Positions 3,928 to 27,431 of a stretch of 64,000 nucleotides of DNA are shown here, in pieces (position 1 is the first letter of the stretch; each line of letters opens with the position of its first letter). The position numbers were made by a program, and so were the translations under genes. Source of the DNA: Pigmentiphaga kullae. GTDB taxonomy: Bacteria > Pseudomonadota > Gammaproteobacteria > Burkholderiales > Burkholderiaceae_B. The notes beneath the pieces were generated by a model. It saw nothing but the letters and a program-made list of their open reading frames with translations, searched no databases and had not been told where the DNA came from. The stretch lies in NCBI RefSeq assembly GCF_004216695.1, contig NZ_SGXC01000001.1, positions 2,046,001-2,110,000 of the forward strand, in the 5' to 3' direction.

Positions 3928-3941
3928 GACCCGATCGTGAA

Positions 3942-9586: not shown

Positions 9587-9588
9587 CC

Positions 9589-9614: not shown

Positions 9615-9757
9615 GCGATGCAGAAGTGATCGAGCAAGGTCGGGTGAGTAGGCATGGGCGATGGGTACTCTGGAAGTGCTTCGCCTAGCCAGGGCTCGAT
9701 GGCTGCCGTTGGAACAAGAAGCGCGTTCGGCGGGCGTCTTGCAAGATGGAATGAAAC

Positions 9758-10109: not shown

Positions 10110-10140
10110 ACCAAAGCTTTGAATCTCTATCGGTTGTTGT

Positions 10141-12081
10141 CTACTTAACTGGAGTGCCACGGACGCTGACGGCTTTGCTCGCGATTTCTGCGGCTATTAG
10201 CGATGCACCCGCAAGCGATGGGTGATGATTGTCAAAGTAAAATGAAGTACCGTTCCTTGCGGCGAAACATCTCTCTTTAGTACACAGTAGCTTCGCTGGA
10301 TCAATAACCTCGACCGAGGGTGGAAGCTGGCTTAACCGCTGCTTGACAAAATTACTTCTCTCGCTCCACCAGTTTATATTGACTCCGGGAATATCTCCCT
10401 CCGGTTGTTTGGAGTTAAAAATAAGAAAATCAATGGGCTTTGGAAGCTCCGGAGCCTGCAGAACCAGGAATACGCGCTTGTGTGCGTCGACGAAAGTTTT
10501 CAACGTGGCCACGTAGGAACGCCACCGTAGCTCTCTTTCGGATTCAGCAACCTTATTGGGCAAAAGCGGGTATGTTTGGGTGTGGTCCCCGAAAAGCTCG
10601 GAGTTGATCCGATAAGCAATAACAACGTTCTTGATCTGAGGGGTGTGAATAATATTCCTGATTGCCAGCTCGGTCCATTCGGAGCACGGGCCGTATCTTC
10701 CATCGAGTTGACGCCCATAGGTAGGAAAGCAACCGCTGAATGACAAATGGCGAAGTTTTTCGCCATGAGGCCGCAGCACTTTCGCCATTTCATAGGCCAG
10801 TTCGACGGCGTGGCTATCGCCGAATATGGCCCAGGAGAGTTGCCCGTCATAATACTCACATGCGTTCTCCGGCCTTAAATACTGCTTGCCGTCGGTATGG
10901 CAATGCTCTCGCTTGGGGCTGAACTTGGCAGTGGAAAGAACAGAGAGCTGCTCCGGCGTTGCTCTGGCTTTGACGAAGCCGTTTGAAAAAAAGCCCGCGA
11001 CCCCGACGCTGAGGAAAAGGGTAAGACCAAAAATGGAGAACTTGAAAACATCGCCCTTTTTTATTCGTCCCTTGTCTCGAAATGGTTTTTCGACATATTT
11101 CCAGGAGAGAACGGAGAGAAACAACGCAAAAAGAATTAGATAAAGGAAGTCGATGGTGTGTGTATTTCCGAAGTGCCATACTCTGAAAAGTGAAAAAAGG
11201 GGCTGATGCCAGAGATATAAGCTATAGCTGATTAGGCCTATGAATACCACGGGCCGAAAAGAAAGCAGCCTTCCGACTGTGGTTTGACTATCCGAGAAAA
11301 AAATTATGCACGCGGCGCCCACGGTGGGAATGAGTGCATAAACTCCAGGAAATGGGGTGGAATGATTCAGGCGAAAAATGGCGTAAAGGACGAGAAGAAG
11401 TCCAATGACTCCACCTCCCTCCCGCATCCATCGAGGAAGAGCCATTTCTTTCGTCAAAATCAAAGATACTATTGACCCAACCAGAAGTTCCCAGGCGCGA
11501 GTAGGCAATAAGTAAAACGCTGCATCGGGTGTTGTCGGAATCATCACTTCAGCAAGAAGAAGGCTGAAGGCTAGAAATACAACGAAAAGGATAAGAAGTT
11601 TGCGCTTCGTCAGTTTCGACGTGATGATCAGCAGAAGTGGAAAGAGAAGGTAGAAATGTTCTTCTACGGCCAGACTCCATGTGTGCAATAATGGCTTAAG
11701 TTCCGAAGCTGTCTCAAAATACCCACTGGTTAGCCAGAACAGAATGTTCGTTGAGAATAAAGACGTTGCTACTAGGCCCTTCGAAAAATCCCTCATGTCC
11801 CGCGGCGGCAAAATGAACCAAGCCGCAATGACGCTGAGCACAAGGACAATGAAAAGCGCGGGAAGAATCCTTCTGGCTCGGCGTTCATAAAAGGTAAGCA
11901 GGTTGAAGGTGCCGCCTCTAATTTCCTGCAGGATGATAGTGGTGATTAAATAGCCACTAATCACAAAAAAAATATCAACGCCGGTAAACCCTCCGCTGAA
12001 AGAGGGAATGCCGGCATGAAAAAATAAGACAGGAAGAACTGCCAGAGCACGAAGGCCGTCAATTTCAGGGCGGTAGCGCAC
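10141..12081 (-). CDS. OafA/YrhL-like acyltransferase with C-terminal SGNH domain
   Basis: This integral inner-membrane enzyme probably O-acetylates the glycan made by this operon. The acyltransferase-3 domain fills about 1-345, with roughly ten hydrophobic helices and the conserved start YRPEIDGLRALAVLPVLFFH. After a further helix at about 347-366, a periplasmic SGNH hydrolase-like domain follows, with GDSH at 421-424 (Ser423) and the distal D-x-x-H as DNHH (617-620). All three catalytic positions are present. The start is GTG at 12081, preceded by GGAG at a good distance. It is the last gene of the long minus-strand operon. The sugar acylated cannot be told from sequence. Confidence 0.88.
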   Translation of the reverse strand: MRYRPEIDGLRALAVLPVLFFHAGIPSFSGGFTGVDIFFVISGYLITTIILQEIRGGTFNLLTFYERRARRILPALFIVLVLSVIAAWFILPPRDMRDFSKGLVATSLFSTNILFWLTSGYFETASELKPLLHTWSLAVEEHFYLLFPLLLIITSKLTKRKLLILFVVFLAFSLLLAEVMIPTTPDAAFYLLPTRAWELLVGSIVSLILTKEMALPRWMREGGGVIGLLLVLYAIFRLNHSTPFPGVYALIPTVGAACIIFFSDSQTTVGRLLSFRPVVFIGLISYSLYLWHQPLFSLFRVWHFGNTHTIDFLYLILFALFLSVLSWKYVEKPFRDKGRIKKGDVFKFSIFGLTLFLSVGVAGFFSNGFVKARATPEQLSVLSTAKFSPKREHCHTDGKQYLRPENACEYYDGQLSWAIFGDSHAVELAYEMAKVLRPHGEKLRHLSFSGCFPTYGRQLDGRYGPCSEWTELAIRNIIHTPQIKNVVIAYRINSELFGDHTQTYPLLPNKVAESERELRWRSYVATLKTFVDAHKRVFLVLQAPELPKPIDFLIFNSKQPEGDIPGVNINWWSERSNFVKQRLSQLPPSVEVIDPAKLLCTKERCFAARNGTSFYFDNHHPSLAGASLIAAEIASKAVSVRGTPVK

Positions 12082-13317: not shown

Positions 13318-14589
13318 CTAATCTCCAGACTTTGCCATTAGATTTTGCATGATCTGGAGAACTTGTTTGGCTTGAGAGGGCCTCGAAAATTGAGAGATTA
13401 CATCCTTTCGAGGAGAGTGCCACTTAAGGGGCTCTCTCTTCATCATCGAGAGGAGGAAGGACTTAACCTTCTGCACATCATTCTCGGCAATCAAGCCGGT
13501 AGCTGTGCTGCTCAAAACGCGTCCGATAGCAGAGCCAGGCGGGCTGCCCAAACTTAGGATCGGCTTGCCCATTGCCAAGTACTCAAATAGTTTACCCGTT
13601 AAAACTCCGCGCGCCTCGGGGGCTGCACTCTCTATCAATAGGAGGGCCGAAGCTCGTGATTGTGCTTTTAGGGCATCAGGCCTTTGTACCCGACCCATGA
13701 GGTTGACGAACGGATGGACGCCGAAGCGATTAATCAACTCATCAAGCCATGAATCGGGTGGGCCATAGAAATCGACGTGAATGTCTCCGGGACTTATCGC
13801 ACCCTCCTGGTGCAGTTCTGATAGGGCCTGGAACAGAGGGCTCGGGTCGCGGTGCTGTCGATACAGCATGCCCGTGTAGACAAGCCTAGGGGGATCTTCG
13901 TGGGTCGGTGCGTCGGGATAGCCAAGATAGTCTTCGGGATCGAAGCCATTTGGAATCACATGGACATGGGAGCACACTAGTGTCTCTAATTGTGCAGCAA
14001 GCTCGTCGGATACCGTGATAAAGGCATCTGCTTCTTTCATCGCTCGTCGTTCGATGGCCGCTTCTCTTTTTTGAGCGGTAGGCCCGTAAGAGGCGAGGTG
14101 GTTTTGACTCCACAAGTCTCTATAGTCAGCGATCCATTTTAAATGAGGATGTCTGGCTCTTACATGGGAAGCGATGAGATGAGTGGATCTGGGGCCATGA
14201 GTGCTGACAATGACGTCGAGGTTCGCGGCAACGCAATCTACTTTTTGACAAGCTGGTGCAATCCAGTAATCTCTGGGATCAAGTACGAGGCCAAGTCTGA
14301 TCTTCAACCAAGAGTTGAGAGCCCGCCCCAATTTCATGAGTTTTTTTGATTTGCCAAGCACTGAGCCGGTGGGCGGTTTGGTGGATTCAATTTGAAAAAC
14401 CGTTATTCTAGAGGAAATGGGTAAATGCAGATCTAAAGGCGCGTCAAAAGCTTGTTTTGTTGGAGTGAATACGAAGACTTCTACTCCGTTCTCTTCCGCC
14501 CAGTACTTGGCCCAACTGTAAGCGCGAAAAGTACCTATGGCATTGCGTGGCGGCCAGTTGTATGTAATAAGGCCGACTCTCAGGCTCAT
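13318..14589 (-). CDS. Glycosyltransferase family 4 protein
   Basis: The product is a cytoplasmic GT-B glycosyltransferase of 423 residues. The N-terminal domain begins LRVGLITYNWPPRNAIGTFR, with the Gly-rich acceptor loop. The C-terminal donor-binding domain includes PRLVYTGMLYRQHRDPSPLF, FVNLMGRVQRPDAL and GKLFEYLAMGKPILSLG, the acidic donor motif region. The start overlaps the stop of the WlbD-like epimerase by 4 nt (ATGA), so the two are translationally coupled. It may transfer the ManNAc3NAcA residue made by the Wlb enzymes, but that is inference from the coupling alone. Donor and linkage are unknown. Confidence 0.85.
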   Translation of the reverse strand: MSLRVGLITYNWPPRNAIGTFRAYSWAKYWAEENGVEVFVFTPTKQAFDAPLDLHLPISSRITVFQIESTKPPTGSVLGKSKKLMKLGRALNSWLKIRLGLVLDPRDYWIAPACQKVDCVAANLDVIVSTHGPRSTHLIASHVRARHPHLKWIADYRDLWSQNHLASYGPTAQKREAAIERRAMKEADAFITVSDELAAQLETLVCSHVHVIPNGFDPEDYLGYPDAPTHEDPPRLVYTGMLYRQHRDPSPLFQALSELHQEGAISPGDIHVDFYGPPDSWLDELINRFGVHPFVNLMGRVQRPDALKAQSRASALLLIESAAPEARGVLTGKLFEYLAMGKPILSLGSPPGSAIGRVLSSTATGLIAENDVQKVKSFLLSMMKREPLKWHSPRKDVISQFSRPSQAKQVLQIMQNLMAKSGD

Positions 14590-15641
14590 AGCAGCGCCTC
14601 AACAATCTTGGAGGCGGCGTGCCCATCACCATATAGGCCAAATGGATAGATCTCCGGGCTCGGCGATTTTAGGGCAGCTTCAATTCTGTCAGGAGCAGTG
14701 CCAACCAGGATGTTGACTCCTGCAGTAACCAGCTCCGTCCACTCCGTTTCGTCTCTTATCGTGATGCACAGTTTGTTGTGGAAATAGGCTTCCTTCTGAA
14801 CGCCTCCCGAGTCAGTGACGATGGAGGCACAATTCTTCTCCAACCAAGCCATCTCCAGATATCCGACAGGGGGAACGAGCCTGACAGTGGAGGGTAGATT
14901 CAAATTAGCTTTCGCCAACACCTGTTTCGTTCGTGGATGGAGCGGCAGGATGATGGGCAAAGGGCTCCGCGCTAATCCTTCGAGGATCGACACCAATCTG
15001 CCGATATCGTCGGTGTTTTCAGCTCGATGGATGGTGCAAAGCACGTACTTTTGGGGGGTAAGTGTCATCTGGCGAAACCAGGGGGGCTCCACCGCCTTGG
15101 GGGCATAAAATAACGTCGCATCGAGCATGACGTCACCAACCCTCCGTATTGATTGTGGAGGCCTGCCTTCATTCTCCAAGTTTTGCACGGCAGTGTCTGT
15201 AGGCGCGAAAAGCAACGTCGAAGCATGATCGGTCAGAATGCGGTTAATTTCTTCGGGCATCTTCCGGTTGAACGAACGGAGGCCTGCTTCAACATGCGCT
15301 ACGGGTATGTTCAACTTGGCCGAAGCAAGGGCACCTGCCAATGTGGAGTTCGTGTCGCCGTAAACGAGTACCCAGTCGGGAGCCTCCTTTAGCAGGACAC
15401 CTTCGATTTTCTCCAATTGCCGTCCAGTCATTTCTCCGTGTTTTCCACCTCCAATCGCAAGATTGTAGTGCGGCTTCGGGATGTGCATTTGTTCAAAAAA
15501 AATCTCGGACATCTCGGCATCGTAATGTTGGCCGGTATGGACAATGATTTCGGTGATCCCAGGCCGATCGGCGATTTCTCGAGAAACAACCGCCGCTTTG
15601 ATGAATTGCGGCCGGGCACCAACGACTGTGAGTATTTTCAT
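14586..15641 (-). CDS. wlbD: UDP-GlcNAc3NAcA 2-epimerase (WlbD/WbpI-like, non-hydrolysing epimerase family)
   Basis: The family inverts C2 of a UDP-HexNAc. In the Wlb/Wbp pathway it converts UDP-2,3-diacetamido glucuronic acid to the manno epimer, UDP-ManNAc3NAcA. The expected catalytic elements are visible: GARPQFIKA (residues 8-16), YGDTNST (Asp), HVEAGLRSF (Glu), PEEINR (Glu), CTIHRAENTD (His) and TDSGGVQKEA near the C-terminus. The overall sequence resembles WbpI/WlbD more than enterobacterial WecB. The presence of WlbA-, WlbB- and WlbC-like genes in the same operon supports the specific assignment. It is separated from those three by seven genes. Coupled by 4 nt to the following glycosyltransferase. 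Confidence 0.87.
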   Translation of the reverse strand: MKILTVVGARPQFIKAAVVSREIADRPGITEIIVHTGQHYDAEMSEIFFEQMHIPKPHYNLAIGGGKHGEMTGRQLEKIEGVLLKEAPDWVLVYGDTNSTLAGALASAKLNIPVAHVEAGLRSFNRKMPEEINRILTDHASTLLFAPTDTAVQNLENEGRPPQSIRRVGDVMLDATLFYAPKAVEPPWFRQMTLTPQKYVLCTIHRAENTDDIGRLVSILEGLARSPLPIILPLHPRTKQVLAKANLNLPSTVRLVPPVGYLEMAWLEKNCASIVTDSGGVQKEAYFHNKLCITIRDETEWTELVTAGVNILVGTAPDRIEAALKSPSPEIYPFGLYGDGHAASKIVEALL

Positions 15642-15701: not shown

Positions 15702-17060
15702 CTAGTTTTCCAATATTTTACAATACAAATCTCGTTCGCCTTCTGTGGAAAACAACGAGTTATGCCAAAGTAAAGTGAAAGTACCCTGTACAGCTCGACA
15801 TGCATCTTTCAGTGCAGAAAACTTCCGCAGCGCAACGTTTCCTGTACCCAGATTCGCGTAACGCTTTGCTATGACGGTGCATTCCATTGCTACCAATGGG
15901 CGTATGCGGAGACCGAGTTGGATCTGATCGACTGGGTCAAATGCTGGATATTCGTGGCATGTTCCGCAACGAAAGCCGGGAAGGTCCGCATAACTGAACG
16001 TGCTGTCGTAATCCATTCCGGCATCGGCCCAGGCGCGAAGTGTATATGGATGGGACCAACGCAAAAAATGCATCCGCCCCCCCCACTTTTCTTGGTAAAC
16101 GGCCTCCTGGTCGCAGACGCTCCACAAGGCTTTTGCTTCCTGGGCGAGGAGTTGAGAGTTTAGGTACGTTTTATAGCTAGGGTGAAGACCAATTTCATGG
16201 CCACGCTCGTAGATCCTGCGTATAAGAGATCTTAAGGCTGGATCCGTGATGTTGTAATCAGCATCGAAGTGCTTGTCCGTTCTACCGCAAATGAAATAGA
16301 ATGCACTTTTCAACCCGTGGGCGTCGGAGACATCCATAATCCATTCAAACGTGTTCATTGGATCCGCACGGTGAAGTGATGTTCTGGAGGCAAACTTGAT
16401 AAGTGGCGCAGTCAGTGCGCTACGGAAATCTCTTCTTTTTATGATGTCACCCGCTAATACTCGCAGAAAGCCAGCTACATCGGTGAAGGCATATTTACTG
16501 GGGCAATCCACATCGTGCGACACTCGGACGGAAAACCGATGAGTTTTCAGTTCAAGTGCAGGCCAAACACGGTGAATGACTTGGCGGAGTATATCAAGCC
16601 ATTCATCCACGATGGGACGTTCCAGATAGGAGTGCTTGAACGCATGGGAGGCCTTCGCAGGAAAGCGCGAATGATTATCCAAATCCTTTGCATTCACTTC
16701 CTCGACGCGGGAGAGCATCCAATAGGTTAGCCCGGGAATATCGTAGTTGACGACATAATGATCCCCTTGGTCTTCCATGATTGGCTTTGCAAGCGGAGTG
16801 GGTGACGGGGTAGGGATGGGAAGACCAAGGGGAGAGGAGAAGGATTCGGCTTCCGCACTCCAGACCATGCAGCCGAATTGCGAATCAAATGAGCGAAACT
16901 CTGGAACACACTGAGGGAAGATGATGTATCTTTCCGAGCCAGATAAATGTATGCGAATGGTCTCGCCATTCTGTTCCAAAGAAAAACGATGTCCATATCG
17001 CTCGAAAAGCAGGGTTTCGAGCCACAAAATAGCAGCTTTGGTAAACTGGTTAAGTCTCAT
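15702..17060 (-). CDS. Polysaccharide deacetylase family protein
   Basis: This 452-residue protein has an N-terminal domain of about 170 residues of the kind often found ahead of NodB-like domains in O-antigen loci. A NodB-type fold follows. Recognisable parts are VRVSHDVDCP (about 183-192, metal-binding Asp), SAFYFICGR, GHEIGLHPSYKTY (second metal motif H-x-x-x-x-Y/H) and the C-terminal LLWHNSLFS (general-acid His). It has no signal peptide, so it would act in the cytoplasm, possibly de-N-acetylating a nucleotide sugar or lipid-linked intermediate. If so, it could expose an amino group for the acyl-transfer module encoded just upstream. Substrate unknown; the family call is good. Confidence 0.78.
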   Translation of the reverse strand: MRLNQFTKAAILWLETLLFERYGHRFSLEQNGETIRIHLSGSERYIIFPQCVPEFRSFDSQFGCMVWSAEAESFSSPLGLPIPTPSPTPLAKPIMEDQGDHYVVNYDIPGLTYWMLSRVEEVNAKDLDNHSRFPAKASHAFKHSYLERPIVDEWLDILRQVIHRVWPALELKTHRFSVRVSHDVDCPSKYAFTDVAGFLRVLAGDIIKRRDFRSALTAPLIKFASRTSLHRADPMNTFEWIMDVSDAHGLKSAFYFICGRTDKHFDADYNITDPALRSLIRRIYERGHEIGLHPSYKTYLNSQLLAQEAKALWSVCDQEAVYQEKWGGRMHFLRWSHPYTLRAWADAGMDYDSTFSYADLPGFRCGTCHEYPAFDPVDQIQLGLRIRPLVAMECTVIAKRYANLGTGNVALRKFSALKDACRAVQGTFTLLWHNSLFSTEGERDLYCKILEN

Positions 17061-17113: not shown

Positions 17114-18187
17114 CTAGCGCCCTTCCAAAAAGAATGGCGTTACATACCAAAGAGAATCATCTGTTATTCCCATTTTTTTGCCGCGATCTGTAACCTTGCG
17201 AGGCATTTTGGGTTGCTCACGTTCCTGACCAATGAGCGAAGCGCCTCTCATCAGCCAGGTGTCGGCGAAATACCGCGCACCCGAAAAGAAAGACTCGCAG
17301 TCAGTGGTGGTCGTCGTCCGTAAATACGTTACCCCCAGTTTGACTCGGCACCAGGATAGTACTTGATTAGCGATCTGGATGGTTTTCGCCGGTGTCGTTC
17401 CGTAAATATCGTCGACAAATAACCCCCTTCCCTTCCTATGGGAAAGTACACAAACGAAAATATCCGATTCGTGGCCTATCTTTAACATCCAATGCTTTTT
17501 ATATGGATTATTCCAAAACCTCCACTCGAGATCTCGCCTGGTTCGGGAAGGTGTAACTCCGTAGTTAGCAGAAGCAGAGGCCCACAGGTTGTCGAGGTCA
17601 AACTCTGACTGTTGGGGTAGGATTGTTTCAATCGTTAGACCCTGCCAGGATTCTTTGCCGGGAGTGTCCAAAACCGGACCTGGATCGATTGCCAATTTTG
17701 GGAGGATTTTCTCTGAAAAAAGGGACAGACTGATCGCTGGCTCGGAGCCGAAATAAACCGTCTGCCAGGCTTGCTCAAAGGTATATCCCAGGGCTTTCCG
17801 CAAGCGTAGAGCCGGGGCCGGCCCCGTGGTAGAAAACAGGATGTCGAACTTATCCTGATAATTCGAGAGAAAATCCTTCTCGAGTCTTGGATATAAAATC
17901 TTGTCGCGGTACTCCGGCAGCACCATGGTGTTTTCCGTCTTTCCGCCTCTTATCGGCGTGCCACGGAAACAAAAATTCTCCGCCATAACTCCATGGTGGC
18001 CAATCAGCTTTGGCTCACTGCCCGGAAGCTCCGCTTCTATTAGCCAGATTTCAGATTCACCCGCCGGCGATTCCAGCCATTGCCATGAGAACTCAGGCAG
18101 GCTTCTTTGTATGCCGCTTATTGAAAAGTAAAGAGCGTTTATACGCTCGGCATCGCCGTTCTGGTAGCGCCGGTGGGTGAACTTCAT
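17114..18187 (-). CDS. GNAT-superfamily acyltransferase, probable glycan N-acyl transfer
   Basis: The product has 357 residues. The first half shows a GNAT-like pattern (HRRYQNGDAERINALYF; LIGHHGVMAENFCFRG; ENTMVLPEYRDKILYPRL, in the place of the acyl-CoA binding loop). FDILFSTTGPAPALRLRKALGY corresponds to the last strand and helix. The C-terminal half could be a second GNAT-like lobe (DIFVCVLSHRKGRGLFVDDIYG). It lies 5 nt after an acyl carrier protein gene and follows a FabH-like gene, so an acyl-ACP donor is plausible. Substrate is unknown and no catalytic residue can be fixed by eye. Confidence 0.65.
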   Translation of the reverse strand: MKFTHRRYQNGDAERINALYFSISGIQRSLPEFSWQWLESPAGESEIWLIEAELPGSEPKLIGHHGVMAENFCFRGTPIRGGKTENTMVLPEYRDKILYPRLEKDFLSNYQDKFDILFSTTGPAPALRLRKALGYTFEQAWQTVYFGSEPAISLSLFSEKILPKLAIDPGPVLDTPGKESWQGLTIETILPQQSEFDLDNLWASASANYGVTPSRTRRDLEWRFWNNPYKKHWMLKIGHESDIFVCVLSHRKGRGLFVDDIYGTTPAKTIQIANQVLSWCRVKLGVTYLRTTTTTDCESFFSGARYFADTWLMRGASLIGQEREQPKMPRKVTDRGKKMGITDDSLWYVTPFFLEGR

Positions 18188-18192
18188 GATGA

Positions 18193-18429
18193 TTAGTTGG
18201 AGTCTTTCAGGAAAAAAGATTGAATGGAATTGAGCGTCCTCAACTCATCAACCTCTTCATCAGAGATTTCTCTTCCGAGTTTCTCTTGCAGCTGAAGCAC
18301 GATATCAAAGAAATCCAAGCTGTCTACCCCGTACTCCCTGAGCTTGGTGTTGGGGTCGATCTTTGCCACGTCGACAGAGGAGGCAACGTTCTTTATTATT
18401 TCGCGAATTTCATCGTGACTGATTTGCAT
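18193..18429 (-). CDS. Acyl carrier protein
   Basis: This 78-residue carrier protein has the phosphopantetheine attachment site in GVDSLDF (Ser37) and the usual acidic helix after it (DFFDIVLQLQEKLGREISDEEV). A strong ribosome binding site (AAAGGAAA) precedes its ATG. It is not the housekeeping acpP: the sequence lacks the common GADSLD context and it stands alone among glycan genes. The neighbours are a FabH-like ketosynthase directly upstream and a GNAT acyltransferase directly downstream. It therefore probably carries a short acyl group destined for the polysaccharide. Confidence 0.92.
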   Translation of the reverse strand: MQISHDEIREIIKNVASSVDVAKIDPNTKLREYGVDSLDFFDIVLQLQEKLGREISDEEVDELRTLNSIQSFFLKDSN

Positions 18430-19362
18430 TTAAATTTCCTTTCGGTTAAGAATCATTGAGGCCCAGGACAGACCTACGCCGAAACCGGATATGAGTACTC
18501 TTTTGGTTTCGGCTCGAGATATTTGTTCTTCAAGTAATAGGGGAATTGAAGAAGAAACGGTGTTGCCTGTCGAATAAAGTTTGTTAATAAAACGATCTTT
18601 CACGGCTGGAAACCTGCGAGCGATGGCGTCCAGAATCCCAGCGCTACCCTGGTGAAGACAATAGCTGTCGATATCTGTTTCATTCAAGCCATTTTCTTGC
18701 AAAAGCGCTTGAATTTCTTTTGGTATCAAGAGCGCTGCAAAATTGAAGACTTGGCGGCCATTCATGAAAAATTGACCGTCTTTTACCATGATTTGCTCGG
18801 CATTTTTACCATCAGATCCCATGCGGGGATTCGATAGGGACCAGTGTCCCTGATTGCTCAAAAGTGTGGCCGTGGCAGCGTCGCCAAAAAGGAGGGTGGT
18901 AGCTTTATCTTGCGGGTTGATTATCTTGGAATAGGGGTCCGCGGTAACGAGAATGCCGTTATCAAGATTGCTGGCCTGCATCAAGCTCCTCAGAATATGC
19001 AGTCCGTAAACATATCCCGAGCATCCCAGAGAGATATCGAAAACTGGTACGGACGTCGGAAGTCCGAGTTTTGCATGCACGAATGCGGAGGTGTGTGGCA
19101 GATGATAGCCGTCGCCATTTTGAGTTACCACCACCAAGGCTCCTACATTACCAGGGCTTAACTGCGTCTTCTCTAGTAGGATGGCCACCGCTTTGGTGGC
19201 CAGATCGGACGTTTCCTCATCTTCCGCTTTTCTAGGGAGCCAACGGGCTCCGATTTTATGCAGAACGGAATCCTCCGTTTCTCCAAAGGCCGCCGCTTGA
19301 AGGAGATTGTCAATACCCCCCCTAGGTATGTACGATGCAATAGCTTGCAGTCGAATAGTCAT
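18430..19362 (-). CDS. FabH-like 3-oxoacyl-ACP synthase III
   Basis: Ketosynthase III enzymes condense an acyl-CoA with malonyl-ACP. The catalytic triad is complete: Cys114 in DISLGCSGYVYGL, His237 in YCLHQGS and Asn267 in YSTGNTVSSS. The C-terminal ISGFGVGLSWASM is typical of the fold. At 310 residues it has normal length. The gene starts in a 4-nt ATGA overlap with the upstream unknown gene and ends directly against the ACP start, which suggests a coupled module. The product of one condensation would be a 3-oxoacyl-ACP. Further reduction would need enzymes from elsewhere. Divergence from housekeeping FabH suggests a specialised role. Confidence 0.87.
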   Translation of the reverse strand: MTIRLQAIASYIPRGGIDNLLQAAAFGETEDSVLHKIGARWLPRKAEDEETSDLATKAVAILLEKTQLSPGNVGALVVVTQNGDGYHLPHTSAFVHAKLGLPTSVPVFDISLGCSGYVYGLHILRSLMQASNLDNGILVTADPYSKIINPQDKATTLLFGDAATATLLSNQGHWSLSNPRMGSDGKNAEQIMVKDGQFFMNGRQVFNFAALLIPKEIQALLQENGLNETDIDSYCLHQGSAGILDAIARRFPAVKDRFINKLYSTGNTVSSSIPLLLEEQISRAETKRVLISGFGVGLSWASMILNRKEI

Positions 19363-19955
19363 GGCGCCCCCACGATGAAGTGAATCTGAGCTACTCGAAT
19401 ATTGTCTATGACGACATCATTGACTGAAAAGCGACCAGGCAAAGCTTTGACCTGCCTGATCGTAAGATTTTCGCGTATGGCTGGCAGCTTTTGTTGTAGA
19501 TCGATCTTGCCAAAAACCCATTTTCCCTGGGCTGGCTCGTTCAATCTGTAGCTAAGTACTTTCGTAAGTGCTATAACGGCTTCGATGCTTGTGTAGGGGA
19601 GAGGCGCCAGCAACATTGCGGAGCGATCTTCGTATGTTGCCGGAGCGACCATAGACTCTTCATCATAAGGTCGACGCTCAAGCAGCTTAGTCGATTTTTC
19701 ACACAGATAAAAGAGTCTGGTTTCGCCATCTGGTAGCGTTAGGGAGCCTTCGCCAATTTTCTCCTCGGGCGACGGGATATCCCCAATGAGAAGATCACAT
19801 TGATTATAAGCAAACCGGGTAAAGCTGAGTCGATTGATATAGGCCTTCTCAGATTTGAAGAAAGCTTGTATGACTGCTTCAGCGCTATTAAAGAGGTCTC
19901 CGCCTTGTATGTAGTGGCGATTGCCCTTGAATGTTAGATCAAGTGGGATTTTCAT
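19359..19955 (-). CDS. Protein of unknown function within the FabH-ACP module
   Basis: I do not recognise this 198-residue protein. It has no signal peptide or membrane segment. Mixed alpha/beta composition is suggested, with a C-terminal strand pair (RFSVNDVVIDNIRVAQIHFIVG). It overlaps wzx upstream by 4 nt and the FabH-like gene downstream by 4 nt, so it is locked into the same translational chain. A role in processing the acyl group (for example reduction, dehydration or editing) is possible from context only. It may also be a partner subunit of the ketosynthase. Confidence 0.7.
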   Translation of the reverse strand: MKIPLDLTFKGNRHYIQGGDLFNSAEAVIQAFFKSEKAYINRLSFTRFAYNQCDLLIGDIPSPEEKIGEGSLTLPDGETRLFYLCEKSTKLLERRPYDEESMVAPATYEDRSAMLLAPLPYTSIEAVIALTKVLSYRLNEPAQGKWVFGKIDLQQKLPAIRENLTIRQVKALPGRFSVNDVVIDNIRVAQIHFIVGAP

Positions 19956-21205
19956 ATTTTTTCCGCTCTCCGGTTGTAGGTGAACATAATGGCTAGCAGA
20001 ACCATGTAGTGGGCTGTCAGGGCGGCCGTGTTAATATGAAGATATTGAGAGAATGACCAATTCAATATGTGGGCTGTGTAAACTAGTCCGACGCTCAGGA
20101 GCACTAGGATCAGTTGCCAGTAGAAACCGATGTGATTTTTTTCGAAAACGACGTTCATCACAGTAAGACTCGAGACGACGAAGCGGATAAAAAGAAGAGG
20201 GCTCATGATTGCGGCATAGGTCCCGGCAATCCGCCACTGTTCACCGAAGACTAAGCTGAATAAGGGTTCCGAGAGAAAGAAAGCCGCTATGAAAATAGGC
20301 GCACCAATGAGCGTAAGTCGTTTGACGGTTTTGTTGAATGCAGTCCTCGCATATCCCGTTTTTTGCTTCTCCAGCGTGGCTTCTCGTAAAAAAACCTGCC
20401 CAAAAGCAGAAGAAATCAATGTGGCTGGTGTTCCCAGTATGCGCATTGCCATGTTGTAGAAGCCCAAGGTGCTAAGACCAAAGACCATGGGCATAAGGAA
20501 GTTAATCGCATTGGTTGCTGAGGTATTAAAAAAGCCGGACCACATGCTATATTTCGGAAAGCTTTGGTAACGTCTTCCTAAAGAGACCGCCCTAGCGCAG
20601 GTGATGGCCCCAAAGTCGAAATGTTTTTTTGCATTGCGGTAGAGTTTGAGGTTTGACGTAAGCTGTCCGATCATGCCGCCGGTGATCAGTCCCGCACTTC
20701 CTCTAGTCACGAGGCCGAGGCCTAACTGCGTGGCTGTGGAGAAAAGGGATTTGTATAGATTGGCAGCGGCGATGTCTTTGAATTTTCCGATGCGATTGTT
20801 TGTGTAGTTAAGCACGTTGAAAATTCCGGTTAGAAGTACTGAAACCGGAATCAAATATAACCAGGGGGCAATGGATTCCGCCTGTAGTAAAACGGCTAGC
20901 CACTTGCCAAAAAAAACCACGATGACGAGGAACAAAGCGGAAACAATTACGGCGAGAGCCGCACCAAGAGCCGCTATGTTGATGGCGTCTTCATCCGATT
21001 CAGGAAGACCAATGGCTAATTCGTACCTGCCATTGGCAACCGATGCTGCCACGGCAGCGATAGCCAGAAACAGCGCGGCAAGTCCAAAGTCATCCGGCGT
21101 ATAAAGTCGGGTGAGAATTGGGGATGCGGCTATTGGCAGAGCCTGAGCTATTGCTGAGCCGGACATCAACGTAAGCACATTCCGACGGTAGCTGCTCTCC
21201 TTCAT
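19952..21205 (-). CDS. wzx: O-antigen flippase (Wzx-like, polysaccharide biosynthesis membrane protein)
   Basis: Wzx moves undecaprenyl-pyrophosphate-linked O-units across the inner membrane. The product of about 417 residues has around twelve hydrophobic helices. It opens with YRRNVLTLMSGSAIAQALPIAASPILTRLYTPDDFG, the typical first segment of MVF-type flippases. A longer frame extends upstream to 21277, but ATG 21205 is chosen because it begins just after the stop of the aminotransferase gene, and the extra 24 residues are not flippase-like. It follows wlbC and is coupled by 4 nt to the unknown gene at 19359. Confidence 0.9.
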   Translation of the reverse strand: MKESSYRRNVLTLMSGSAIAQALPIAASPILTRLYTPDDFGLAALFLAIAAVAASVANGRYELAIGLPESDEDAINIAALGAALAVIVSALFLVIVVFFGKWLAVLLQAESIAPWLYLIPVSVLLTGIFNVLNYTNNRIGKFKDIAAANLYKSLFSTATQLGLGLVTRGSAGLITGGMIGQLTSNLKLYRNAKKHFDFGAITCARAVSLGRRYQSFPKYSMWSGFFNTSATNAINFLMPMVFGLSTLGFYNMAMRILGTPATLISSAFGQVFLREATLEKQKTGYARTAFNKTVKRLTLIGAPIFIAAFFLSEPLFSLVFGEQWRIAGTYAAIMSPLLFIRFVVSSLTVMNVVFEKNHIGFYWQLILVLLSVGLVYTAHILNWSFSQYLHINTAALTAHYMVLLAIMFTYNRRAEKI

Positions 21206-21212
21206 TGGAGTA

Positions 21213-22301
21213 TCACAGCACTTTCTTGAGTTGATCAGCAATTTGCTGGATATCGGCTTCCCTAATATATGGGCCAAAAGGCAGGCTCAGCACTTCCTTG
21301 GCGACCAAGTCTCCGATAGGAAGGACGACTTGAGAGTCAGCGACTGCAGGCTGCTTGTTGAGTGGGATCGGGTAGTGAATAGCCGTTGGGATACCTGCAG
21401 CGGTCAGAGCACGTTGTACCTCGTCGCGTTGTGAAACGCGAATGGTATATTGAGCCCAGGCGCTGACATTATGATCTTCAATGCGAGGAATGGAAGCGAC
21501 CCCCGCTTGTGTGAGCAACTTGGAGTATAGGGTAGCTGCTTGTTGGCGCTGATCCATTTCGTCACTGAAAATTTCGAGTTTTGCCAGGAGGATCGCCGCC
21601 TGCAACGTATCTAGGCGACTGTTTACGCCCACCCGGATATGGTGGTACCGGCGGTCTTGTCCATGACGGGCAATTTGGCGTATCGTCTTGGCTAGATCGT
21701 CATCGTTGGTGAAGATGGCCCCCCCGTCTCCGTAGCAGCCGAGTGGTTTGCTGGGAAAGAAGCTGGTGCATGCAATTGTGCTGAGGTTGCAGGAGTACCG
21801 GCCTTTATATGTGGCACCAAAACTCTGTGCTGCATCTTCGATAACAGCAAGGTTGTATTTCTCGGCAATTGCGTTGATGGCGTCAAAATCCGCGCACTGG
21901 CCATAGAGCGATACCGGAATGATTGCCTTGGTCCGAGGCGTAATCGCCGCTTCGAGTTTTGCCGGGTCTAGGTTATACGTCTTCTCCTCGATGTCGACAT
22001 AAACCGGCTTTGCTCCTAAAAGAGCACTGGTTTCGGCGGTGGCGATATAAGTGAATCCCGGGGTGATGATCTCATCGCCGGAGGTTACTCCTAAAGCCAT
22101 CTCGGCTATCTGAAGCGCATCGGTGCCGTTGGCGCAGGTTATGCAATACTTGGAGCCTACGTATTGTGCGAGTTTGTTCTCTAGTTCTTCTACCTCGGGG
22201 CCTAGAATATACCGTCCGTGTGCAAGGACCCGATCGATGCCTGCGGTGATTTTTTCCTTGAGGCGCTGTTGCTGGGATTTGAGGTCACAGAATTCGATCA
22301 T
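21213..22301 (-). CDS. wlbC: UDP-3-oxo-GlcNAcA 3-aminotransferase (WlbC/WbpE-like, DegT/DnrJ/EryC1 family)
   Basis: This PLP-dependent sugar aminotransferase puts an amino group on C3 of the oxidised UDP-GlcNAcA, with glutamate as donor. The PLP lysine is Lys185 in [31 protein letters not shown] (about 155-168) supplies the Asp and Gln that contact PLP, and NGTDALQIA (58-66) forms the phosphate-binding loop. The length (362) is that of WbpE. It overlaps the wlbB-like gene by 4 nt. The sequential reaction with WlbA and WlbB gives UDP-GlcNAc3NAcA. The product 2-oxoglutarate is also the oxidant that reloads WlbA-type enzymes. Confidence 0.92.
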
Positions 22302-22897
22302 TGCGAAACTTCCTCCTTGCAGAGTTTTCTTTGAGTCAGGATGTAGTGGCTACCGGTATGGGGGCAAATGTACTCGCCTGTGCCTTCCAACGGTAATGGT
22401 ATCTGCTCGCCGTATTCGCTCATCCATCCGATTTGGCGGGCGGGAACGCCAACCATTAGAGCATAGGCGGGGACATCTTTATTTACCACTGCCCCTGCCC
22501 CTATGAAAGCAAATGGTCCAATTGTTATGCCGCAAACGATGGTGCTATTGGCCCCGAGCGTTGCACCTCGACCTACTCGAGTATTTCGGTACTCACTTTT
22601 TCGCTCGACTAGGGCGCGAGGGTTGTAAACGTTTGTAAAGACCATGCTAGGGCCGCAAAAAACACCATCGGCCAGTGTCACGTTATCGTACACAGAAACG
22701 TTATTTTGTATTTTGCAATGATCGCCTATTTGGGTATTATTTCCGACGAAAACGTTTTGACCTAGAGACACGTTCTTGCCGATTTGTGCGCCGCCGCAGA
22801 TATGTACAAAGTGCCATATCCGAGACCCTTCCCCGATGCGCGCCCCTTCATCTATCACGGCAGTCGGGTGGACAGTATAATTGCTCCGGTTTGTCAT
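22298..22897 (-). CDS. wlbB: UDP-GlcNAc3NA 3-N-acetyltransferase (WlbB/WbpD-like)
   Basis: This left-handed beta-helix N-acetyltransferase is 199 residues long from the ATG at 22897. Hexapeptide repeats run through [58 protein letters not shown] and [20 protein letters not shown]. This is the signature order of WbpD/WlbB proteins. A longer frame reaches 22948, but ATG 22897 forms an ATGA overlap with the stop of the upstream flavoprotein gene and begins exactly where the family does. It acts after WlbC in the cytoplasm and uses acetyl-CoA. Confidence 0.92.
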
Positions 22898-23934
22898 TTG
22901 AGAATCCTCATCGCGGCTTCTTCTCCCTGAATTTGCGCGGTTGTCCATTTGCCTCCGTAGATATGCAAGACATTGCCGATACGCTCAAAAGCCCATTCTC
23001 GGGTGTTGTTCGACGGATTATTGGCACTTCGTATGAGCGGGCGTATGCCAGAATATGTTTTTGTTATTTCAGTGATGCTTGCCGAGGGCTCTATATAATG
23101 ATTAAAAATTTTGAGTAGATAACTGATTTCTTCTGGGCTAGCACCAGGGTTAGAAGGGTTGTCCTGCCGAATTTCGGTGGTCCCCACTAATGTCTCGCCC
23201 TTGTAAGGTAGGACGAATATGATGCGTTTCTCGTGCGGGACTTGTAAAAAAAGCGCGGTAGGGCAGGGGCGCGCAAGCACGATGTGGCTGCCGCGAACCC
23301 AATCCAAGGAGTAGGGTGGCCGGGTGCCGTGTGTGGAACGCAAATCCATCGCCCAAGGGCCGGCCGCATTTACGATTCGATCAAACTGCTCAAGCTCGTC
23401 AAAATCGGTTATTGTGTGGCCGGTTACGAGCTGGCCGCCGTCTCCCTGGAATCGCTCGATTACCCATTTCCCCAGAGCGTAGTCGTCCATCTGCGCGTCA
23501 TAAAATGAATATGCGCCAAGAAGATTGCGCTGAGTCAGCGCGGGCTGCCGCATGAGAACCTGTTTGGGCGTGAGCCAGGATGCTTTTGGAAAGCCGCTAC
23601 CTGAGGCCAGTAGGTCGTACAATTTTATTCCTGCGCCGACCAGCCAGGTGGGCCGCATTTGACCTTGATACAGGGGCAGGAGCAATTCCAAGGGCGAGCA
23701 AAGATGTGGCGCTTGTCGCAGCCATTGGCTGCGAGCTTGCAATGCTTTATGTACCAGGCGAATCTGAAAGGTTTCGAGGTAGCGTAGCCCACCGTGAAGC
23801 AGTTTGGAGGAAGCTCGGCTGGTTTCCTCCATCGGCTGCTTTCGTTCAATGAGTGTTACCTTGGCTCCGCGGCGCGCTAGTGACCAGGCTGTGGAAGCCC
23901 CAATAATGCCGGCGCCGACAACAGCTATGCGCAT
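22894..23934 (-). CDS. GlpD-like FAD-dependent oxidoreductase, truncated form, embedded among wlb genes
   Basis: The product has 346 residues. FAD-binding [10 protein letters not shown] is at 5-14, and the motifs [12 protein letters not shown] (43-54), [47 protein letters not shown] and YGGKWTT follow GlpD order closely. Classical glycerol-3-phosphate dehydrogenase has about 500 residues; here the C-terminal helical domain is absent and the protein ends just after the last FAD motif. It lies 3 nt after wlbA and overlaps wlbB by 4 nt, so it is co-translated with the ManNAc3NAcA pathway. Substrate is uncertain: glycerol-3-phosphate by similarity, or a 2-hydroxy acid (see findings) by context. 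A degenerate passenger gene is less likely because all visible motifs are intact. Confidence 0.8.
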
Positions 23935-23937: not shown

Positions 23938-24996
23938 TCAATATTCCAAGGGCAGAGCGACTTTGCAGCCATCGCGGGCGGACATATACATGGCGATAAG
24001 TAGTTCTAGGCTCTTCAGTCCTTCCCGCCCGTCCGTTTCCGGATGTGCTTCGCCTCGCAAGGTTTGAATGACGTTCTCATAATAAAGCGGATGCCCGAAG
24101 CCGTAGACTGACGTAGTGCTGTAGCTTGCTTGCTGGATTTCCGCGTCTTCGGGTCGACTATCGGAAAAATCCCAATGCAGTACTTCGTTTACGGCCACGC
24201 CGCCTATTTTAGCCGTACCCTTCTCTCCGATTATGGTAATGCTGCCTTCAAGATTCTTGGGGTATGTGAGCATGGAAACGTTCAAGGTTCCCATTGCTCC
24301 GCTGCGCCAGCGAAGGGCAGCCACCCCACTGTCTTCCACTTCGATGTTGCGCACCTGCGTGCCGGTGTATGACATGACACTCTCGACTGGTCCTATTAGC
24401 CAATCAAGTAAATCGATATAGTGGCTTGCTTGATTCATGAACGCCCCGCCATCGAATTCCCAGGTGCCTCTCCATTTCGCACTATCATAATAATCCTGAG
24501 GGCGGGTCCAGAAAACGTTGACTGCAACGTTATATATCCTGCCAAACCGTTTTTGTTCGACGGCGCGTTTTAAGAGCTGCAGCGTGGCGTTGCGGCGGTT
24601 TTGCTTGACAACAAAGAGATAGACGCCGGATTTGTCGCACGTTTCAACCATGCGAAGCCCGTCTTGCCATCTAGTCGCCATCGGCTTTTCAGTCATGACG
24701 TGCCTGCCGGTAGGGGCAATCCTGCACGTTTGGGAGGAGTGCAGGCCGCTGGGCGTGGTAAGAATGACGCAGTCAGCGGAGGTATTTTCCAGCAACTCTC
24801 CCAACTGGGAGTGGCCCCGGGCGCCAGTTTTTTTTGTTGCATCCTCCAGGGCGGCGGGCGATGTATCACATACATCTACGAGTTCACATTTGTCAGCGTG
24901 GCTGGCAATCGCGGAAAAGTGATTTTGAGCAATTCGACCGCATCCAACGAGAGCAAATCGAACTTTTCGGCCTTGAATAGGAGAAACTGTAAACAT
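23938..24996 (-). CDS. wlbA: UDP-GlcNAcA 3-dehydrogenase (WlbA/WbpB-like, Gfo/Idh/MocA family)
   Basis: WlbA oxidises C3 of UDP-N-acetylglucosaminuronic acid with tightly bound NAD. The N-terminal Rossmann fold reads VRFALVGCGRIAQNHF (about 12-27). The conserved EKP follows as VMTEKPMA, with Lys as the general acid/base. The sugar-binding domain has GGAFMNQASHYIDLLDWL with its conserved His. The C-terminal part carries GFGHPLYYENVIQTL. The length of 352 residues is slightly longer than usual at the N-terminus; a start at a later codon is possible but no other Met is close. First of the four wlb steps represented in this operon. Confidence 0.92.
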   Translation of the reverse strand: MFTVSPIQGRKVRFALVGCGRIAQNHFSAIASHADKCELVDVCDTSPAALEDATKKTGARGHSQLGELLENTSADCVILTTPSGLHSSQTCRIAPTGRHVMTEKPMATRWQDGLRMVETCDKSGVYLFVVKQNRRNATLQLLKRAVEQKRFGRIYNVAVNVFWTRPQDYYDSAKWRGTWEFDGGAFMNQASHYIDLLDWLIGPVESVMSYTGTQVRNIEVEDSGVAALRWRSGAMGTLNVSMLTYPKNLEGSITIIGEKGTAKIGGVAVNEVLHWDFSDSRPEDAEIQQASYSTTSVYGFGHPLYYENVIQTLRGEAHPETDGREGLKSLELLIAMYMSARDGCKVALPLEY

Positions 24997-25071: not shown

Positions 25072-26112
25072 TTAATTCTTTGCTGCTGATAGGTTCAAGT
25101 AATGGCTTATGTACCAAGGCATAGCGGCTTCTATGCCGGCTATGACATCATGAGTGGGAACGTATCCGAGAAGTTCACGGGCTTTTGCGATGTCCGCTTG
25201 CGAGTGCAGGACATCTCCAGCTCGAAAGTCTCTGTAGATGGGCTGTTGTTCATAGACGATGTCTTTTTCTTTCAAGCCATCTTTGAGGATGGAGAAAAGC
25301 TGGTTTAGGGTGGTTTTCCCACCTACCGCAACGTTGTAGACCTCGTTTCTTGCTATTGCTGGGGAGAGTGTTGCCAAGAGATTGGCCTGAATAACGTTGT
25401 CTATGAAACAAAAATCCCTGCTTGTTTGTCCGTCACCATTGATATAGATCGCATCGTTGCGGATCATTGAGGCGATCCATTTCGGAATGACAGCAGCATA
25501 GGCGCCTTCGGGATCTTGGCGAGGTCCGAATACGTTGAAGTATCGCAACCCGATTGTCTTGAAACCGTAACTTAGAGCGAACACCTCGGCGTATAGCTCG
25601 TTTACATACTTCGTGATGGCATACGGAGAAAGGGGCTTCCCAATCCTATGTTCAATCTTGGGAAGATCGGGGTGATCACCATAGGTAGAACTACTCGCCG
25701 CATAGACGAAGTTTTTTGCTTGCGCATCGCGCGCGGCGACAAGCATGTTCAAAAACCCATCTATATTGACCGAGTTCGTCAGCAGAGGGTTCTCCAAGCT
25801 GCGCGGCACGGAACCCAGGGCCGCTTGGTGGAGCACGTAATCGACGCCGGAGCAGGCTTGTGTGCAGACGTTTAAATCTCGGATGTCGCCTTCAATGAAT
25901 ATAAAGCGTTGCCATTGCTGATTGGATACCCTTTCCCGAATTTCGTCCAGGTTGCGTCGGTGCCCGGTCGAGAAATTGTCGAGTCCGACTACGTCTTGAT
26001 CCAGCCGTAGAAGGGTTTCAACGAGATTGCTGCCAATGAACCCAGCCGCGCCTGTGACGAGCCATTTTCTTGGCGTAGATTGAATGCGACGAAAAATTTG
26101 CTGAGAGAGCAT
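25072..26112 (-). CDS. wbpP: UDP-N-acetylglucosamine / glucosaminuronate 4-epimerase (WbpP/TviC-like)
   Basis: This SDR-type epimerase interconverts UDP-GlcNAc and UDP-GalNAc, or the matching uronic acids. NAD motif GAAGFIG is at 21-27. The active site is SSST (140-143) with YAITK (Tyr164, Lys168). [35 protein letters not shown] (given here only in part) and [18 protein letters not shown] follow WbpP very closely. Its place directly after the WbpO/TviB-like dehydrogenase mirrors the wbpO-wbpP and tviB-tviC pairs. Together they would give UDP-GalNAcA. The 346-residue length is normal. Confidence 0.9.
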
Positions 26113-26150: not shown

Positions 26151-27431
26151 TTACAGACGCATATCGGCGCTGTGCCGAGGCAGGATGTACTTGAGGTCGT
26201 AAAGGACATGTCGCGATTTGGCGAATTCGCGAATCGCTGTCTCTCCCATTTCCTTGAACTCGTCGTGGGCAACAGCCATTATGATCGCGTCATAGGTGTT
26301 GGTGGTCGGCTTGTCTATCGGCGTGATGTCATATTCATGCAGAGCCTCATTGGCATCAACCCAGGGGTCATAAACGTCGGCAACTACGTTATATTCCTGT
26401 AGTTCTTTTATGATATCCACGACACGGGTGTTGCGAAGATCGGGGCAGTTTTCCTTGAATGTAAGCCCCATCACAAGGACTCGGGAGCCTTCCACCTGGA
26501 TGCGCCGGCGCAGCATGACCTTGACCAGCTGGGATACGACATAGGCGCCCATGCCATCATTGAGGCGGCGGCCAGCCAGAATGACTTCCGGGTGATAGCC
26601 TATGCTTTGGGCCTTATGGGTCAGGTAATAGGGGTCAACTCCTATGCAGTGACCGCCCACGAGGCCTGGGCGGAATGGCAAGAAATTCCATTTCGTACCT
26701 GCTGCTTGCAGCACCGCTTCGGTATCGATGCCCATTCTGTTGAAAATGATAGCCAGTTCGTTGATAAGCGCGATGTTGAGATCTCGCTGAGTGTTCTCGA
26801 TCACTTTTGCTGCTTCGGCTACGCGAATGCTCTCGGCCTTATGGGTGCCGGCAGTAATGATTTCTTGATAAAGGCTATCGACCAGTTCCGCGACGTCGGG
26901 TGTCGACCCGGATGTTACTTTCTTGATGGTCGAGACTCGATGCTGTTTGTCGCCGGGATTAATGCGCTCGGGGCTGTAACCGGCAAAAAAATCCATGTTG
27001 TAGCGCAGGTTCGAATGCTTTTCCAGAACCGGAACGCAATCTTCCTCGGTCGCCCCAGGGTAGACCGTGGATTCGTAAATGACGATGTCGCCCTTTTTCA
27101 GAATCTTGCCGATGGTCTCGGATGCTTTGATCAGTGGCGTCAGGTCGGGTCGTTTGTGGGCATCGATTGGAGTGGGGACAGTGACGATGAACACGTTGCA
27201 GTTTTTCAAGACCTGCGGGTCGGCGCTGTATGCGAGCTGAGTGGCGGCCTGCAACTCTTTATTGCTGACCTCGAGAGTGTTGTCGTGGCCGGCCTGAAGC
27301 TCGTCGATTCGGGTTGTATTGATATCGAATCCCAGAACGGCTCTTTTCTTGCCGAATTCCACTGCAAGCGGCAGACCTACGTAGCCGAGGCCGATAACTG
27401 CGAGCTTAATGTCTGATAGGCGAATTGTCAT
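26151..27431 (-). CDS. wbpO: UDP-N-acetylhexosamine 6-dehydrogenase (WbpO/TviB-like)
   Basis: The enzyme oxidises C6 of UDP-GlcNAc or UDP-GalNAc to the uronic acid, with two NAD per turnover. The Rossmann motif is [18 protein letters not shown] (10-27). The catalytic cysteine is Cys262 in [11 protein letters not shown], and [11 protein letters not shown] and [11 protein letters not shown] are the usual substrate-binding segments. At 426 residues it matches WbpO and TviB. No second 6-dehydrogenase is seen in the operon, so its UDP-GlcNAcA probably supplies both WbpP (to GalNAcA) and WlbA (to ManNAc3NAcA). That would put it at a branch point. Confidence 0.9.

Follow-up and report, generated by a model that had tools for sequence, protein, structure and literature searches.

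Related systems

Porphyromonas gingivalis and Tannerella forsythia make a linking sugar by what is here called the Wbp/Vim pathway. In it, WbpA, WbpB, WbpE and WbpD produce a UDP-2,3-diacetamido-uronate; VimE is proposed to remove its C2 acetyl group, and the putative N-acetyltransferase VimA to attach serine or glycine (PMC7468200). A related locus is found in the window, by which we mean the whole 64,000-nucleotide stretch of Pigmentiphaga kullae DNA analyzed here (NZ_SGXC01000001.1, positions 2,046,001-2,110,000). Its genes point to the same sugar pathway and the same deacetylate-then-acylate logic, and the WbpI-type epimerase that is predicted in T. forsythia is found in the window. The locus differs in having a GNAT-like acyltransferase and a set of genes for a ketoacyl-acyl carrier protein synthase III (KAS III), an acyl carrier protein (ACP) and a predicted double-hotdog protein of 198 amino acids without a family name, which we call Unk, and the acyl donor is probably an acyl-ACP. 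Because the sugar pathway and deacetylase are present, with GNAT-like, KAS III, ACP and Unk genes in place of a recognizable VimA, the addition of a new group from an acyl-ACP is the simplest reading. We assign a probability of roughly 60% to an acyl-ACP-fed variant of the Wbp/Vim pathway, in which the tandem-GNAT-like enzyme acylates an amine freed by the deacetylase.

In gene content, the window shares a dedicated KAS III, an ACP and an acyltransferase with the viosamine island of P. syringae (Pseudomonas syringae; genes vioS, vioR, acp and vioB) and with the counterpart of that island in P. aeruginosa PAK, the acyltransferase of the window being GNAT-like only. The island, whose product is a 3-hydroxybutanoyl amino sugar, differs in that it has a ketoreductase, VioR, whereas none was seen in the cassette; in that none of its seven listed genes is a counterpart of Unk; and in that it acts on dTDP-viosamine for flagellin (PMC3927599). 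The original prediction, made from the letters of the DNA, had called a dedicated fatty-acid line for O-antigen decoration little described, but this line of KAS III, ACP, reductase and acyltransferase is already known in P. syringae.

Other systems share individual elements. In the group II flagellar glycosylation islands of Aeromonas, the pseudaminic acid genes are accompanied by fatty-acid genes, one of them for an ACP, but the others are a 3-oxoacyl-ACP reductase, an AMP-dependent synthetase, LuxE and LuxC, and neither fabH nor synthase III occurs as a word in the main text of PMC7874193. The Mad malonyl-ACP decarboxylases resemble the cassette in that GNAT and hotdog proteins are grouped around an ACP; acetyl-ACP is a donor for the amino-sugar N-acyltransferase GlmU, and indeed its preferred substrate, which is a precedent for an acyl-ACP donor (PMC8666670). 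Modules in the K loci of Acinetobacter baumannii correspond to hydroxybutanoylated capsule amino sugars (PMC9676051, PMC3628348). Searches of open-licence PMC papers listed none recognized as describing the Unk-FabH-ACP cassette. Within the literature searched, three things appear to be new: Unk itself, the recurrence of an Unk-FabH-ACP unit whose acyltransferase can be exchanged, and the joining of this unit to a pathway of the Wbp/VimE type.

Genes of the cassette

The cassette and the genes adjoining it are as follows.

19952-21277, minus strand: Wzx-type flippase (PF13440, 9e-33; the listed TTG start may be too far upstream)
19359-19955, minus strand: Unk, predicted double hotdog, family without a name
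18430-19362, minus strand: FabH-like ketoacyl-ACP synthase III of a distinct subfamily (PF08541/PF08545)
18193-18429, minus strand: dedicated ACP (PF00550, 1.4e-12; DSL serine)
17114-18187, minus strand: candidate tandem-GNAT-like N-acyltransferase (PF13527, E = 0.039, below cut-off)
15702-17060, minus strand: DUF7033/CE4-type deacetylase, VimE-like (PF23019, 1.3e-29; NF053580 VimE, 4.8e-48)
14586-15641, minus strand: WbpI-type UDP-2,3-diacetamido-2,3-dideoxyglucuronate 2-epimerase (8sxv, 3.5e-126; TIGR00236 wecB above cut-off)

As had been described, four consecutive genes that overlap or abut lie between wzx and the deacetylase gene, all on the minus strand. The gaps are -4 bases between wzx and Unk, -4 between Unk and FabH, 0 between FabH and ACP, 5 between ACP and GNAT, 53 between GNAT and deacetylase, and 60 between deacetylase and epimerase. 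Because the gaps run from -4 to 60 bases, wzx through the epimerase gene likely form one operon.

The FabH-like enzyme matches PF08541 (3.2e-20) and PF08545 (8.5e-20) and is 25% identical to the only further FabH relative found in the genome, which is taken as the housekeeping FabH. Its Cys114, His237 and Asn267 align with the Cys, His and Asn of that protein, in agreement with the original prediction. The triad is accompanied by HQGS, where the housekeeping FabH has HQAN, in 30 of 30 subfamily members compared (19 from outside cassettes and 11 from cassettes, those of L095, L110, L111 and L112 being excluded). Because the enzyme scores below the cut-offs of curated NCBIfam FabH families (197.7 bits versus 249, and 165 versus 292.1), it is, as judged by sequence, a diverged relative of KAS III other than the housekeeping FabH. 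Furthermore, a Trp of the housekeeping FabH is replaced in all 30 members, by Phe in 28, by Ser in the window and by Leu in one. That Trp presumably stacks on the adenine of CoA, so the subfamily may differ in its use of primer.

The ACP gene product scores 48.1 bits with PF00550 (cut-off 20.8) and keeps its DSL serine, as expected. As judged by sequence, the GNAT label is weak, the Pfam score lying below cut-off; a structure model of low confidence matches tandem GNATs (figures are given below). A Foldseek search with this model gave 173 matches at E <= 0.001 (best E = 2.4e-07), and the 50 that were listed are titled acetyltransferase, GNAT, Eis2 or NMT, except 2hv2, whose title gives unknown function. 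The protein is thus likely to adopt a tandem GNAT fold. Its alignment, used as a profile against solved structures, gave no match, and neither did the protein against NCBIfam at E <= 0.01. VimA as the identity of this gene was rejected on the lack of an NCBIfam match, a judgment made with no VimA sequence in the comparison.

The amino-sugar pathway and the deacetylase

Upstream in the same direction are the following genes.

26151-27431, minus strand: TviB-type UDP-GlcNAc 6-dehydrogenase (NF011729, 680.8 bits, above the cut-off of 592)
25072-26112, minus strand: TviC-like uronic acid 4-epimerase (NF011728, 4.2e-150, 499.6 bits, below the cut-off of 760)
23938-24996, minus strand: WbpB/WlbA-type Gfo/Idh/MocA 3-dehydrogenase (3q2i, 1.2e-179; PF02894, PF01408)
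22298-22948, minus strand: WbpD/WlbB-type hexapeptide N-acetyltransferase (3mqg, 2.3e-93)
21213-22301, minus strand: WbpE-type 3-aminotransferase (3nyu WbpE, 1.6e-175)

We take 3q2i (PDB title: dehydrogenase) to be WlbA, and 3mqg (PDB title: lipopolysaccharide biosynthesis acetyltransferase) to be WlbB. The entire set of 6-dehydrogenase, WbpB, WbpE, WbpD and WbpI-type enzymes of the Wbp/Vim pathway is matched in the window. By family, the TviB, WlbA/WbpB-, WbpE-, WbpD- and WbpI-type enzymes would suffice for the synthesis of UDP-GlcNAc3NAcA and UDP-ManNAc3NAcA. A gene for a GlpD-like FAD-dependent oxidoreductase (22894-23934) is located between the WlbA-type and WbpD-type genes.

The deacetylase matches Polysacc_deac_1 (6.5e-05) in addition to DUF7033 (PF23019). 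The blocks HDVD, RGHEIGLH and WHN do not vary across three aligned sequences, and the alignment used as a profile did not match any solved structure. A rhombosortase is also encoded in the genome (L104, G000:C1:251020-251469) and scores above its family cut-off. It could favor a sortase-type linking sugar, as in type IX secretion system (T9SS) bacteria, as the product of the locus. However, no exosortase was matched in the window genome, a hydroxy- or oxo-acyl group would leave no free amine for the link, and the sole VimE relative found in the genome is the deacetylase of this operon; we give this explanation a low probability.

Recurrence of the cassette

Two loci from gammaproteobacterial metagenome-assembled genomes (MAGs), L041 and L076, contain Unk, FabH, ACP and GNAT genes followed 3.5 kb further on by a VimE-like deacetylase gene. 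Because both repeat this arrangement, they argue for the acyl-ACP-fed variant of the Wbp/Vim pathway. The order in L076 is WbpB-, WbpD- and WbpE-type genes, Unk, FabH, ACP, GNAT, two reversed genes (asparagine-synthase-like, as judged by eye, and Wzx) and deacetylase, and L041 has the same order from the end of WbpE onward. Their GNAT-like proteins are 41% (L041) and 38% (L076) identical to that of the window. The Unk-FabH-ACP-GNAT block is therefore contiguous in three lineages, and the deacetylase gene is near it, at times non-contiguously. This gene context, along with the Wbp/Vim precedent, supports the original proposal that an acyl-ACP unit serves an amino sugar whose amine is freed by the deacetylase. 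The asparagine-synthase-like open reading frames (ORFs) between the GNAT and deacetylase genes are at L041:3331-5292 and L076:12247-14385; one enzyme of the Wbp/Vim pathway, WbpS, is an amidotransferase of the AsnB type (PMC7468200).

In total, 16 cassette loci were collected (the window, L006, L007, L021, L041, L066, L076, L094, L095, L100, L101, L102, L103, L110, L111 and L112), 11 of them with Unk queries alone, and their genes were labelled with profiles built for this analysis. Unk is an ORF in 15 of the 16, and in L007 is a truncated piece with one stop. ACP is present in 16/16, as is a FabH-like gene, although the copy between Unk and ACP in L101 (7628-8146) is a remnant of 172 amino acids; the same stretch has a complete copy, of the stand-alone type, at a distance of about 6 kb (809-1738). 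Because every Unk-family locus holds both partners, the co-occurrence of Unk, the FabH-like gene and ACP is beyond chance. The order Unk-FabH-ACP is found in all loci but L095, which has FabH-ACP-AAC(3)-Unk with its FabH-like gene (6705-7694) adjoining ACP.

The acyltransferase gene adjoining the unit is of the hexapeptide class in 11 loci, GNAT-like in three (the window, L041 and L076) and AAC(3)-like in two (L007 and L095). The hexapeptide proteins are either long (L006, L094, L102, L103, L111, L112) or PglD-like (L021, L066, L100, L101, L110), the PglD-like part of L110 being residues 296-504 of a long ORF that ends just ahead of Unk. Pfam analysis of eight acyltransferases gave Hexapep for L006, L094, L102, L103, L066 and L100, and PF02522 for L007 and L095; the other hexapeptide calls were made by profile. 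The core unit is thus Unk-FabH-ACP, with an exchangeable acyltransferase. The four genes as one fixed module were rejected on this variation. What survives of the four-gene module first proposed is its three-gene part, and the neighborhood search suggested with it found the four genes contiguous in L041 and L076, whereas the other 13 loci have a different acyltransferase class.

The sugar genes nearby vary as well. They are dTDP-sugar genes in L006, L102 and L112; pseudaminic-acid-type genes in L007, L021, L066, L100 and L101, with a weaker match in L095; and UDP-diaminouronate genes in the window and L076, whereas the L041 stretch ends within its WbpE-type gene. The sugar context of L094, L103, L110 and L111 is less certain. 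The three-gene core thus accompanies different sugar pathways, and the bacteria that carry it belong to several families. The pseudaminic-acid-type cluster of L007 also has a 427-amino-acid ORF (8990-10273) next to the AAC(3)-like gene and the cassette.

Unk was found in 3/369 genomes of the class sample, 3/399 of the order sample and 4/268 of the family sample (own genome included in each), in 1/398 of the phylum sample (own genome only), and in 5/248 genomes of the family of L066 (L066 genome included); these samples may overlap. None of ten other genomes of the genus of the window within the family sample contains Unk, and a search of plasmids gave no match.

Unk: fold, variation and possible roles

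Unk has no match in Pfam or NCBIfam and a single weak match of unknown function in PHROGs (E = 0.0083). A Pfam scan of 12 Unk members at E <= 5 gave only two unrelated families with one member each (best E = 0.11), and the alignment used as a profile did not match any solved structure. Structure prediction, which had been recommended for this protein, was informative. The AlphaFold2 model (pLDDT 85.3, pTM 0.83) consists of two helix-plus-sheet repeats and is predicted with good confidence to be a double hotdog. The best Foldseek matches are dehydratase domains of polyketide synthases (PKS; best E = 2.2e-05) and thioesterases that act on acyl-ACP or acyl-CoA. At E <= 0.001 there are 27 matches, which show 5-13% identity, query TM-scores of 0.31-0.48 and root-mean-square deviations above 10 Å, so the model supports the fold class, though global superposition is poor.

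The PKS dehydratase matches make it possible, as a tentative assignment, that Unk is a dehydratase or hydratase of acyl-ACP. Housekeeping FabG would reduce the 3-oxo group, and Unk would set a but-2-enoyl or (S)-3-hydroxy group, thereby fixing the acyl group that is used. Both (R)- and (S)-3-hydroxybutanoyl groups occur on bacterial sugars (PMC10609480), and the divergence or replacement of one repeat, described below, is as expected if that repeat sets specificity. Against this role are the low identities and poor superposition of the Foldseek matches, the lack of a Pfam dehydratase match and the lack of a conserved His. A hotdog dehydratase would have a catalytic His with an acidic partner, but no His is invariant in the 12 members, and position 17 is His in seven, Gln in four (including the window) and Arg in one.

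The thioesterase folds among the Foldseek matches raise a more doubtful role, that of a thioesterase-like or decarboxylase-like hotdog that edits acyl-ACP or supplies primer, comparable to MadB, which makes acetyl-ACP. The commonest Unk pattern, Y15-x-H17-x-(T/S)19, is spaced like the MadB loop N45-x-H47-x-T49, and a double hotdog decarboxylase, LmnK, is cited in the same paper (PMC8666670). However, the likeness is by spacing, the two families not being aligned to each other; His17 is present in 7/12 members and Thr or Ser at position 19 in 8/12, the window having Gln17 and Gly19; and the invariant Tyr of Unk faces the catalytic Asn45. Mad is also a single hotdog belonging to PF09500, a family that none of the 12 Unk members matches.

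A non-catalytic role for Unk, as a partner guiding ACP from the FabH-like enzyme to the acyltransferase, is unlikely. ACP does accompany Unk at every locus seen, and position 17, the possible site of a catalytic His, varies. Yet eight residues do not vary in the 12 divergent members (R13, Y15, G18, R94, E99, K132, W146 and F148), and R13, Y15, R94, E99 and K132 among them resemble an active site.

Over 18 kb, loci L021 and L066 share about 95% identity, the exception being a stretch of some 400 bases (L021:9398-9790) that covers the first hotdog repeat of Unk. Identity in this stretch is 37-59% per 100 columns, whereas the next lowest stretch has 73%. The two Unk proteins are identical at 56 of the first 125 residues and at 68 of the last 71. 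This pattern suggests that one Unk repeat was swapped by recombination. Because the loci differ sharply just there, it is hinted that the first repeat sets specificity.

Proposed pathway

What the analysis shows is the gene content, its conservation and the predicted fold of Unk; from these we infer every enzymatic step that follows. TviB, the WlbA-type dehydrogenase, WbpE, WbpD and WbpI, all with strong matches, would produce UDP-GlcNAc3NAcA and UDP-ManNAc3NAcA. The VimE-like deacetylase would then strip one N-acetyl group, by analogy that at C2. The FabH-like enzyme would charge the dedicated ACP with a short 3-oxoacyl chain in thioester linkage, probably C4 and built from an acetyl primer and malonyl-ACP. 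In the most uncertain step, Unk would process or select the acyl-ACP, for example by dehydration or hydration along with housekeeping FabG. With the completed acyl group, the tandem-GNAT-like enzyme would acylate the nucleotide sugar at its free amine, and this sugar would be built into a surface polysaccharide of the Wzx/Wzy type. Elsewhere among bacteria, the Unk-FabH-ACP core would feed other acyltransferases acting on other amino sugars.

The product class exists. Plesiomonas shigelloides O51 contains GlcNAc3N[(R)-3-hydroxybutyryl]A, and a maloyl group is found on the same sugar type in Pseudoalteromonas rubra (PMC10609480). The original prediction named 3-hydroxybutanoyl as an example of such groups; no ketoreductase was seen in the cassette, so for the window this group is no more than a candidate. 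A Bordetella avium O-chain reportedly carries 3-hydroxybutanamido on a 2,3-diaminouronic acid.

Several observations weigh against the proposed pathway. No ketoreductase gene lies between wzx and the epimerase gene; the other loci were judged by reading ORFs. The GNAT-like protein scores 14.4 bits with PF13527 (E = 0.039), below the cut-off of 25, and its structure model has a pLDDT of 53.7. The deacetylase scores 163.8 bits with NF053580 VimE, below the equivalog cut-off of 440, and in L041 and L076 it is parted from the cassette by the two reversed genes. Unk of the window has no conserved His/Asp dyad and carries Q17. In the known GlcNAc3N-acyl structures, the acyl group is written on N3, not N2 (PMC10609480); this weighs against a simple equation with the product of the window, because the deacetylase logic favors N2. 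Finally, the 3-hydroxybutanoyl-sugar modules of A. baumannii are listed, in the passages covered, without FabH or ACP, and the words "acyl carrier" are absent from the main texts of both papers (PMC9676051, PMC3628348). A dedicated line is therefore not required for 3-hydroxybutanoyl, and would need another reason, such as flux or an unusual acyl group.

The FabH-like gene also occurs by itself. A scan with the FabH alignment gave at least 576 relatives, of which the 80 best were kept; four of these 80 have Unk, and exactly those four have ACP. The other 76, of which 75 are titled Pseudomonas and one is a Paucimonas MAG, lack both and also count against the pathway, though at least four of the 80 loci (L033, L043, L044 and L063) end within 600 bases of the FabH-like gene, which makes absence there weak. 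Because flagellar genes adjoin two of the stand-alone copies (L009 and L035, which were read), the FabH-like enzyme works in another setting too, a further point against. In a tree of FabH sequences, the copies that lack Unk and ACP fall into a single supported group (97/96) nested inside the cassette copies, as if Unk and ACP had been lost there; the midpoint root falls on the housekeeping FabH, and long branches leave the deep order unsure. The FabH alignment gave 18 pattern matches in viral contigs, none of which was confirmed.

The many Pseudomonas copies without Unk and ACP could mean that the FabH-like enzyme and ACP belong to lipid or signal metabolism in general and are in the locus by chance. 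A KAS III homologue of the P. syringae glycosylation island is said to affect acyl-homoserine lactones. However, all 16 cassettes adjoin acyltransferase genes, most with recognizable amino-sugar genes, the same block is present in three lineages, and another FabH is encoded elsewhere in the genome, which leaves this explanation very unlikely.

The surface polymer

The polysaccharide operon is divergent from a group of export genes.

679-6158, plus strand: Wzi, low-molecular-weight phosphatase, Wza-type export protein and Wzc-type kinase (Wzi, 4.2e-60)

Because Wzi, Wza, Wzb and Wzc-type genes are present, the locus is suggestive of a Wzy-dependent capsule or exopolysaccharide locus rather than the O-antigen operon that had been assumed, and O-antigen as a settled identity was rejected on the same genes. 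Near the export genes is a gene for a 526-amino-acid protein (6501-8081) that has no Pfam match at E <= 1e-5 and, as judged by eye, a possible Tat-type signal. Remnants that by eye resemble an IS3-type transposase (8448-9103) separate the export genes from the operon; a search of this stretch against plasmids gave no near match.

Significance

N-acyl groups on the sugars of capsule, O-antigen and flagellin shape recognition by antibodies and phages. The origin of unusual surface acyl groups is often unexplained, and a compact, testable unit offers an answer. If the acyl-ACP-fed pathway is correct, it would connect chemistry of the fatty-acid type with the Wbp/Vim sugar pathway and would give a function to a protein family without a name in Pfam or NCBIfam. 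A broader view, which we advance as speculation that is possible but has the odds against it, is that Unk represents a new family of double-hotdog enzymes that fixes the identity of acyl groups on surface amino sugars. Unk, a private ACP and a CoA-diverged KAS III would make up a portable cassette swapped between nucleotide-sugar pathways, and the surface might be varied by exchange of the first hotdog repeat. The cassette would also be a marker for predicting acylated sugars from genomes.

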